Assembly: GCA_005881425.1 (NCBI GenBank) | Contig: VBIC01000103.1 | Coordinates: 26,817 to 86,843, forward strand | Source: Chloroflexota bacterium | Lineage (GTDB): Bacteria; Chloroflexota; Dormibacteria; CF-121 | Reading direction: 5' to 3' | DNA length: 60,027 bases | Shown here: positions 43,359-47,597 of the stretch, in pieces | How positions within the stretch are numbered: position 1 is the stretch's first letter | Layout of the letters: each line of letters opens with the position of its first letter | Notes under the pieces: model-generated | What the model saw: only the letters and a program-made list of their open reading frames with translations | Told to the model about the DNA's origin: nothing | Databases searched by the model: none | Translations under genes and position numbers: made by a program

Positions 43359-43375
43359 AGCTGACCAGGTCAGCT
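43359..43375. terminator. Palindrome between convergent comEC and RnfD-like genes
   Basis: AGCTGACC-A-GGTCAGCT is a perfect palindrome (43359-43375) overlapping the stop of the minus-strand gene and lying 46 bases after comEC. It may be a bidirectional terminator. Confidence 0.45.
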
Positions 43376-45053
43376 AAGGGGCGGGTGCCAGATCTGTGTA
43401 GTCATTGATGATGACCTGTTGGCTGACGTTTGCCACCGTATCCAGACCCCAGCTCTTCGAATAGGGCGTGCTCGACCGCGACAGCACCGCGCCCGATGCA
43501 TCCCTGGTGGTGAAGGTGCTCGTCCCTTTGAGGGTCACGCCGACCAGTCGGGACGCTTGGCTGCTGAATTTGGGAAGGAAGAGGTCAAGGCTGACCTTGT
43601 CGAAGCTGTAGGTCTTCTGAATGATCTTTCCGGCGGCGATGTCCTGCTTGATGACGTCGGTGAATTCCTTGAGCCCATCGCCGGTGGCCCCCCTTTCTGC
43701 CAATTGCAGGTCGTGGGCGCGGCGCGCTTCAGATTCGATGATGAGGTCGAGCACCGCGTCATGCGCCATCCTGGTCGCGCTCTTTGGCGCGGACTGATCG
43801 AAGGCGACCACATCCGAGGCGATGGTGACATCTGGAATCGGCGGTAGGATCCACAGCTGTGCCGATGCCGAGGCGGGACCCGAACCGATCGGCGGCGGCA
43901 GGGCAGCAGCCGCGGACCTCGAGACCCAGTCACCGACCGCGGGCCCGGCGCCAACCGTGAGGGCGAGGGCGGGCGTCGACCCATCGGCGAGCCCAGCGGC
44001 CGGCTCAGGAGCGTGGGTCGATAGATCGGCGGCCACGGGCAGGGTGCCGATAAATAGCAGCGCCACGGCGAGCGCCGCCGGCAGGCGCCAGCCAAGGCGA
44101 CGCGACCGAGCCCTACGCCTCTCCCGGGCTTCGAGTGGGGCCAGAAACCGCGCCAGCGCGAAGCGCAAGGCACAGGCGATGACCAGGCTCGCCAGGATGG
44201 CGGTCTTGGTCGCGAACTCGAGTGTCGTCGGGCCGATCAGCAGAACCGCCAAGATGGCGACGAGAATGCCGAATGCCACACGCGCCATCGGGCTGTCGGG
44301 AACCGTCCTCGGGTCGGGAATCATGAAGAGGCCGAAGACCAGGAGTTCAGGCGAGCTGACCAGGATCTGCCAGAGTTCACGTCCGCACATCGGGGCCACG
44401 TGCCAGCTGGCGACCATGCAGTGGTCGGGCACCAGAGCAAGCGCCAGTGCCGTAAAGGCCGCAAACCCAGCCATGAAGGCCAGCTCGAGGCCGAGCAATC
44501 GCAGCTCCCACGCGATCAACACGCCCCCGATCACCAGCACCGCGTAGGTCACGATCAGCCATGGCCCGGGCGGGATCCACCACAAGTCCTGCGGTTCTGT
44601 GAGCTTGGGCCCTAGCGCGACGAAGGCGATGACCAGGCCAAGATTCGAGGGGTTGAAGATGTGCCGCCGACGCCAGCGGATCAGGTACTTCGACGCCATC
44701 GAGATAGCGACGACGCCGATAAAGATCCAGATCCCATGCGTGCTCCACCATTGGCCGTGCAATGTGCCGGGAGTTCGCAGGATGAACGCGGTACTGTTGC
44801 CGGTCAGCAATCCGCTTGCCGGCCACATGATCGCCGAGTCCTTGAAGAAGGCGACAACGAATTCGATCGCGGCGCCGGTCGCGAGACAGATGAGAATCTG
44901 CGCCACCGAGAGCCGGAAGCCGAGCACCGTCTGGCCCAGCACCTGAAGCGTCACCAGTACCGCGGCTACGTGCATTCGGGGATCGCGGATGCTGGGGAGG
45001 ATGACCGCATACTCCCGGCCGAGCAGCCGAACTGCCCGGCGCTTGGCGCTCAC
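43374..45053 (-). CDS. RnfD/NqrB/UnbU-like membrane protein with long C-terminal extension
   Basis: A 559-residue protein. The first 330 or so residues have about ten hydrophobic segments and family blocks DPRMHVAAVLVTLQVLGQTV, IMWPASGLLTGNSTAFILR, HIFNPSNLGLVIAFVALG and FMIPDPRTVPDSPMARVAFG, as in Rnf/Nqr subunit D and in UnbU-type proteins of enediyne loci. Residues about 345-559 form a soluble extension after a membrane segment, with no recognised domain. No other Rnf/Nqr subunits lie nearby, so it is an orphan. Function is unknown; a flavin or quinone electron-transfer role is only inferred from the family. Confidence 0.75.
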   Translation of the reverse strand: MSAKRRAVRLLGREYAVILPSIRDPRMHVAAVLVTLQVLGQTVLGFRLSVAQILICLATGAAIEFVVAFFKDSAIMWPASGLLTGNSTAFILRTPGTLHGQWWSTHGIWIFIGVVAISMASKYLIRWRRRHIFNPSNLGLVIAFVALGPKLTEPQDLWWIPPGPWLIVTYAVLVIGGVLIAWELRLLGLELAFMAGFAAFTALALALVPDHCMVASWHVAPMCGRELWQILVSSPELLVFGLFMIPDPRTVPDSPMARVAFGILVAILAVLLIGPTTLEFATKTAILASLVIACALRFALARFLAPLEARERRRARSRRLGWRLPAALAVALLFIGTLPVAADLSTHAPEPAAGLADGSTPALALTVGAGPAVGDWVSRSAAAALPPPIGSGPASASAQLWILPPIPDVTIASDVVAFDQSAPKSATRMAHDAVLDLIIESEARRAHDLQLAERGATGDGLKEFTDVIKQDIAAGKIIQKTYSFDKVSLDLFLPKFSSQASRLVGVTLKGTSTFTTRDASGAVLSRSSTPYSKSWGLDTVANVSQQVIINDYTDLAPAP

Positions 45054-45098: not shown

Positions 45099-46115
45099 TT
45101 GTCAGTATTCCGCTTCCTGTTGTACGCATCGTACCGAGCACGGGCCGGGTTGATCGGAGCTGTCGTCATCGCCGCGCTCTCGGCCTGTGATCTTCCGTTT
45201 GGTCTCGACCTGCCTACGACCCGCAGCCTGGAGAGCGGCGCCACCGGCACTCTGCTCGCGGCCGACAGCTTCGAGATCACCGGATCGTACAGCGAAGGCA
45301 GCAACCAGTGGTCCATCGACCTGCAGCTGAGCCGCCCGGACTCCGAGCAGCTGACCGTCGCGACATCCAATCTCAAGCTCGAAGCCATCATCCTTGACAA
45401 CAACGCCTATTTTCGTGGGCAGCAGTTTCTCTCGGCGCACATGGGCAGCGATCTTGTTTCTCTCAGCCTTGTCAAGGCGGCGGGAAACGGGTGGTGGAAG
45501 GGCTCGGCGGGTCGTGTTCCCCAGTTGACGGACCTGACCGATGGAAACGGCTTCCGGTCGACGTTCCTTGGGCAGGCAATCACGCAGCGCACGGACCACG
45601 TGTCGGTGGATGGAATCGATGCGGTCGACCTGTCCGGCGCGCGGGGAGAGGTTTTTATCACTGCGCAAGCGCCCTATCGGGTGCTACGCGTGCGCCTGAG
45701 ACATGGTGTTGTCGTCGACGGCATTCGCGATGCCGACCTTCGCTTCGTTAATTACAACCGCGATCTCCACATCGCAGCCCCTGCCGAGGTGATTGATTTC
45801 TCGAATCTCAGCACCCTGCCGCCCATCTACACGGTCGTGTCGGTCGACACTTCCAGATGCGGCACGCCCTGCGCCGTCTCGGCTCTCCTCAAGAATCTCG
45901 GCGGGCTGCTCCATGCCAAGGCGCCATCCACCATCATCTTCACCATGACGGATACGGCCTCCCGGCAGGTTCTGGGAAGTTGCCAGACGCCGGTCCTGCC
46001 GGACGTCGCGTACAACGCGACGACGATGGTGACATGCTCTATCGAAAACGTGACCGCCGAGCAGTCAAACGCGGCCACCGTCACGGCGAAGCCGGACAAC
46101 CCGGGTCGCCTCTAG
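45099..46115 (+). CDS. Putative lipoprotein of unknown function
   Basis: A 338-residue exported protein with TTG start. N-terminal signal RARAGLIGAVVIAALSACD contains a lipobox (ALSAC), so lipid attachment is expected. Residues about 40-230 form a beta-rich segment with some resemblance in plan to LppX/LprG-type lipoproteins (not certain). The C-terminal third has two cysteine pairs (RCGTPC, GSCQ/VTCS) and an Ig-like texture. It is followed after 4 bases by the SH3-domain gene. Divergent from the RnfD-like gene. Confidence 0.65.
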   Translation: MSVFRFLLYASYRARAGLIGAVVIAALSACDLPFGLDLPTTRSLESGATGTLLAADSFEITGSYSEGSNQWSIDLQLSRPDSEQLTVATSNLKLEAIILDNNAYFRGQQFLSAHMGSDLVSLSLVKAAGNGWWKGSAGRVPQLTDLTDGNGFRSTFLGQAITQRTDHVSVDGIDAVDLSGARGEVFITAQAPYRVLRVRLRHGVVVDGIRDADLRFVNYNRDLHIAAPAEVIDFSNLSTLPPIYTVVSVDTSRCGTPCAVSALLKNLGGLLHAKAPSTIIFTMTDTASRQVLGSCQTPVLPDVAYNATTMVTCSIENVTAEQSNAATVTAKPDNPGRL

Positions 46116-47003: not shown

Positions 47004-47597
47004 TCAGGTGTCGTCGGCCTGGCTCAGGACTCTGGGCACGCCTGCGGCGTCGTACGACGGGTCGGGATGGATATCGAAGGCATCGGCAAGGCGCACGAAG
47101 AAGTTGAACAGGGCGCCGTCGTAGACGGCTTCGGCGATCTGCGCGTCGTTCCACCCGGCTTGGCGGAGACCTTCGACTTGCCCATCGCTGATGCGATAAG
47201 CATGGCGCGTCAAGGTCTCTACGAATTCCAGCAGCAGTCGATGTTTCGGCGTAACGGCGGCGGCCTCCAGGTCACCATCGCGCAAGGCCGCCGCGGTTCG
47301 CGAGTACTGCTCTCCCTGCAACTGCAGGAACCAGGCATGGCTGCTGAGTCAATAGTGGCAGCGGTTGAGCGCCGAGACATAGGAGGCGATCATTTCGTGC
47401 TCGGCCCGGCTGAGCGCGCCGTCCGTGAAGTGCAGCCGGCTCGCCTGATCGATAGCCCGCAGGAAGTCGGGTCGTAGGCTCATCGTCCGCAGGATGTCGG
47501 GAACGTTTCCCGTCGGCGAGGTTTTCTTCAGCTCTCGGTAGACGTCGGCGATCTCGCCCGATGCGTCGTTATCGTCGATCCACGCGATCCGAGCCAT
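47004..47597 (-). CDS. AhpD-like peroxidase-related protein with in-frame TGA (candidate selenocysteine)
   Basis: Carboxymuconolactone decarboxylase/AhpD-fold protein. The frame reads SRAEHEMIASYVSALNRCHY, then TGA (47349-47351), then LSSHAWFLQLQGEQYSRT and on to the true stop, in one frame, 197 residues if TGA is decoded. AhpD-type enzymes have CHYCxxxH; here Cys80 and His87 are kept and TGA83 stands exactly at the second redox Cys, giving CxxU. A hairpin at 47313-47330 follows at SECIS-like distance. Alternatives are a nonsense mutation or sequencing error. It lies 30 bases after aroQ on the same strand. Confidence 0.75.
47313..47330 (-). promoter_or_regulatory. Candidate bacterial SECIS hairpin
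   Basis: On the minus strand TTCCTGC-AGTT-GCAGGGA forms a 7-pair stem (one G-T) with a four-base loop having G at position 2. The stem begins 18 bases and the loop 25 bases after the TGA codon, within the 16-37-base window generally described for bacterial SECIS loops. Coding is maintained through it. Confidence 0.5.

Follow-up and report, generated by a model that had tools for sequence, protein, structure and literature searches.

The gene and its surroundings

The analysed window, a stretch of 60,027 nucleotides from a Chloroflexota draft genome, carries on its minus strand a coding sequence at 47004-47597, predicted to encode an AhpD-like selenoprotein of 197 amino acids. The reading frame opens with an ATG at 47597 and closes with a TGA at 47006-47004; between them lies a single further in-frame TGA, at codon 83 (47351-47349). 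The translation MARIAWID...LNRCHY[TGA]LSSHAWFLQLQGEQYSRTAAALRDGD... runs on up to the terminal TGA, and standard gene calling would cut the gene short at the internal one. The internal triplet occupies the second position of a CxxC/U motif within the active-site sequence RCHY[TGA]LSSH. Three further sites complete the arrangement E-x11-C-xx-U-xxx-H on the minus strand: (i) Glu68 (47394-47396), the spacing equivalent of the AhpD proton-relay glutamate; (ii) Cys80 (47358-47360), the first, resolving-side cysteine of CHYU; (iii) His87 (47337-47339), the spacing equivalent of the relay histidine. None of these residues, nor position 83, varies across 31 aligned sequences. The preliminary description, made from the sequence of the window, had placed the TGA at the second cysteine of the AhpD CxxC, with the first cysteine and the histidine kept, and had seen family-like sequence continuing behind it. 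Both observations stand, as Cys80 and His87 are retained, the TIGR01926 and CMD profiles cross the TGA and the C-terminal part is conserved.

The end of the aroQ gene (Pfam DHquinase_II), on the same strand, lies 30 bp upstream. A functional connection with the shikimate genes has been rejected, since the relatives examined have no aro genes beside the selenoprotein gene. The neighbours conserved within the organism's own family are a downstream convergent SH3-domain gene, a gene at 45099-46115 and a gene at 43374-45053. The last of these (minus strand) encodes a strongly conserved, membrane-like protein of 559 residues without a Pfam match, and adjoins the selenoprotein gene both in the own family and in one other family of the class. 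No partner is suggested by an operon in the neighbourhoods examined.

Family assignment and conservation of the TGA codon

With position 83 entered as C in place of U, the protein scores 93.4 bits against the peroxidase-related model TIGR01926, above the curated cut-off of 81.8, and its relatives reach 92.8-99.4 bits; the score against Pfam CMD is 46.8 bits. The equivalog model NF041238 (AhpD_rel_CFYUT, alkylhydroperoxidase-related (seleno)protein) describes a related AhpD-like domain with Sec at the equivalent place, but it is longer (357 positions) and its cut-off of 175 bits is missed with 69.9.

The nearest solved structures by sequence are the AhpD-related 3c1l, 2oyo, 6k40 and 2prr, and in two structure alignments (3c1l, 2oyo) a CxxC lies at the position aligned to CxxU. 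An AlphaFold2 model of the protein has a pLDDT of 94.2, with 2prr, 6k40 and 3c1l as its best PDB matches (TM 0.73-0.80). As modelled, the protein has an AhpD-type helical fold. These four Cys-type, peroxidase-related AhpD proteins share the fold and the aligned active site, whereas they carry Cys where Sec is predicted here. The overall fold match to the structure of Mycobacterium tuberculosis AhpD (1knc) is weak, with a TM of 0.49. The proton relay of that enzyme consists of Glu118, Cys130, Cys133 and His137 (PMC3141380), spaced as E68, C80, U83 and H87; it differs in the position of the catalytic helix pair, which is permuted, and in the use of Cys133 in place of Sec83.

AhpD-like selenoproteins with CxxU have been described from the Sargasso Sea (PMC1088965) and from Global Ocean Sampling data (PMC2398784), and a 2026 review lists the selenoprotein family "AhpD-like, TIGR01926, CxxU" (PMC13188914). 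The remark in the preliminary description that Sec forms of AhpD-like proteins had been predicted in other bacteria is thereby documented. The gene is a further member of this already described family, with which it shares a score above the cut-off of the family model, the CxxU motif, Sec at the second cysteine and a SECIS-like hairpin shortly downstream (PMC1088965, PMC13188914). The differences from the known CxxU family relate to the host, which is here soil-type Chloroflexota and relatives rather than the Sargasso Sea, and to the close homologues (E <= 1e-60, genome searches), which all carry TGA. No paper dealing with this lineage has been found in the open-access literature searched.

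The same TGA is present at codon 83 in 88 of 88 related loci, all of which continue in frame; these loci include repeats of the same genomes, and the stretch from the TGA to the hairpin is represented by 56 distinct sequences. Among 61 relatives, 23 close homologues (E below 1e-60) have been identified, with the TGA in 23/23; the N-terminal frame of one of them (L029) is broken. A phylum scan of 400 genomes returned 22 homologues at E below 1e-30, each with exactly one TGA, of which 18 were already among the 23 and four were new. A scan of named genomes, queried only with the part downstream of the TGA, returned 61 loci with the TGA in all 61. The collection scan relied on two peptide patterns, H[TAS]WFLQLQ and [EA]QIAEA[AV]Y; it was free of bias at the TGA codon but may overlook diverged members. 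The organisms named belong mostly to Chloroflexota and Dormibacterota, and also to Planctomycetota, Armatimonadota and Acidobacteriota; one homologue record carries the label Proteobacteria. The protein is conserved on both sides of the TGA; downstream of it, in the C-terminal part of the alignment, 43 columns are invariant. The alignment of homologues, proposed as a check in the preliminary description, places Cys at the same position in more distant homologues of the class, in the forms CPYC, CTYC, CLYC and CDYC (L030-L035 with CxxC), and TGA in the 88 close loci.

A lone TGA one base away from the Cys codons TGC and TGT, in a window taken from a draft assembly, could be a nonsense mutation in a pseudogene or a miscalled base. 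The recurrence of the identical triplet in 88 loci from independent assemblies of several phyla, together with the 43 invariant columns behind it, refutes this explanation and leaves it a negligible probability.

A Sec-only orthologous group, lacking a Cys form among close homologues, whose spread took in Chloroflexota, Planctomycetota, Armatimonadota and Acidobacteriota while the hairpin in the coding sequence stayed nearly unchanged, is conceivable but is put forward tentatively, as a proposal more doubtful than not.

Further AhpD-like candidates have been noticed in relatives. A more distant second selenoprotein candidate of a class relative (L036, G031:C29:1334-1732, minus strand) reads CHY[TGA]TQSH, with an 8-bp hairpin after the TGA, CACGCAGA-GTA-TCTGCGTG. 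Four distant AhpD-like matches contain one internal TGA each (G001:C48:2071-2598, G040:C66:2871-3263, G041:C10:14495-14974 and G055:C92:40932-41282) and are possibly other selenoproteins.

A SECIS-like hairpin within the coding sequence

Downstream of codon 83 a bacterial SECIS-like hairpin, TTCCTGC-AGTT-GCAGGGA, is located at 47313-47330 (minus strand), with arms at 47330-47324 and 47319-47313 and the loop AGTT at 47323-47320. It has seven pairs, including one T-G, starts 18 nt past the TGA and places its loop 25 nt past it, with G second in the loop. The bSECIS model provides for a loop 16-37 nt from the UGA, G among the first two loop bases, a stem of 4-16 bp, a loop of 3-9 nt and a minimum free energy of -7.5 or below (PMC13188914). 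The hairpin conforms to all of these rules (25 nt, AGTT, 7 bp, 4-nt loop), and the folding energy of the 48-nt hairpin region is -13.9 kcal/mol. The geometry given in the preliminary description, including its place within bacterial SECIS limits, has been reproduced. Its statement that such a hairpin would seldom come after a TGA arisen by chance proved too strong: comparable hairpins (>= 7 bp, with the spacing and loop-G rules) follow 151 of the 1438 TGA triplets of the window (10.5%, both strands), and the argument from a single hairpin is weakened to that extent.

The codons F90-L-Q-L-Q94, which form the hairpin, have undergone no synonymous change in 23 relatives, compared with a median of 0.41 (41%) for 174 windows of five codons within this gene. 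In 23/23 relatives the codon for Leu93 is TTG, which makes up only 5% of their other Leu codons. In 2 of 50 distinct FLQLQ-type sequences an arm pair has changed from C-G to T-A (U-A in the RNA) through CTG>TTG and CAG>CAA, both silent and together compensatory; these two sequences stem from seven loci, most of which carry the label Anaerolineae or Chloroflexi, and may represent a single event. Six Acidobacteriota sequences have the peptide FLRVQ and keep the lower six pairs and the G second in the loop, with the top pair open. As judged from these sequence comparisons, the hairpin is under constraint at the RNA level, i.e. functional as RNA. It is the comparative evidence, and not the single hairpin, that settles the selenoprotein case.

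The same data bear on a reading as two genes, in which the TGA would be a true stop and a second protein of 105 residues would start from a TTG at 47321. An open reading frame with this start (47321-47004) is indeed present in the open reading frame listing. The supposed start is, however, the invariant Leu93 codon in the hairpin loop, replaced by GTC or GTT in Acidobacteriota; the AhpD profile spans the TGA, and a stop there would part Cys80 from the remaining relay residues within one helix pair. This arrangement does not hold up against the conservation data, and its probability is negligible.

Decoding machinery and predicted function

In bacteria, Sec is decoded by SelB bound to a hairpin downstream of the UGA. 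The organism's own genome contains an intact selA (G000:C51:27980-29146, 473.6 bits) and, adjoining it, an intact selB (G000:C51 25977-27836, 361.1 bits). The selD gene is represented by an N-terminal fragment of 87 residues at a contig end (L166:2-262, start of G000:C60), whose score of 116.7 bits is under the cut-off of 125 because the contig end cuts the gene. This selD is itself of the Sec type, with a TGA at the catalytic position, SHGAGUACK (GAGUACK motif).

Searches of the own draft, about 90% complete and in 227 contigs, with RF01852 and with a relative's tRNA-Sec DNA as query turned up no tRNA-Sec gene (selC); the RF01852 matches are tRNAs for Ser, Leu, Arg and Lys, and there is no selC near selA-selB or selD. 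In the relatives, ARAGORN detected tRNA-SeC(tca) in 14/14 loci checked. Among the 23 genomes with the protein, selA is over the cut-off in all 23 and tRNA-Sec is present in 19; the remaining four, the own genome and three others, are drafts with a completeness of 75-90%. An assembly gap is the best explanation for the missing selC. Absence of selA, selB, selC and selD had been named in the preliminary description as grounds for giving up the selenoprotein reading; selA, selB and a fragment of selD are there, and only selC was not found in the incomplete draft, though it occurs in close relatives.

The lack of a detected tRNA-Sec in the own assembly, and the Cys normally found here in the AhpD family, would agree with UGA codon 83 being read as Cys or another residue, through readthrough without Sec or through Sec machinery charged with sulfur. 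Against this stand the intact selA and selB, a selD that is of the Sec type, tRNA-SeC(tca) in relatives and the terminal TGA of this very gene, where the triplet still serves as an ordinary stop; such a reading is very improbable, if slightly less so than a pseudogene or a pair of genes.

With a probability of about 0.96, on sequence evidence, the gene encodes a real AhpD-like (TIGR01926, CxxU) selenoprotein in which UGA codon 83 is read as Sec. Gene structure, the universal TGA, hairpin constraint, the Sec genes, the fold and the relay residues are established by the analysis; actual Sec insertion, catalytic activity, substrate and reductant are inferred. In the proposed mechanism SelB, Sec-tRNA and GTP would bind the hairpin just 3' of codon 83, and the UGA would be decoded as Sec. 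Sec83 would then stand in for the second cysteine of the CxxC site of AhpD, within the E-x11-C-xx-U-xxx-H proton relay. At the position of M. tuberculosis AhpD Cys133, it is probably a reactive selenolate that reduces either a peroxide or a disulfide. In resolving it, Cys80 would close a selenenyl-sulfide bond, which a dithiol partner in the cell would then reduce again. The most likely function is that of a thiol/selenol peroxidase or disulfide reductase, with a modest preference for the peroxidase over a general disulfide-reductase role; with codon 83 almost certainly read as Sec, the protein counts as a selenoprotein of the antioxidant type.

The locus illustrates clearly how a SECIS hairpin inside a coding sequence can be held fixed at its synonymous sites, and it includes a compensatory change that is silent. 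If the Sec-only group is true, the needs of the RNA hairpin would be part of the reason why the FLQLQ peptide is kept. A well-supported selenoprotein and its decoding machinery are added to soil-type Chloroflexota and their relatives, a lineage in which selenoproteins are little documented.
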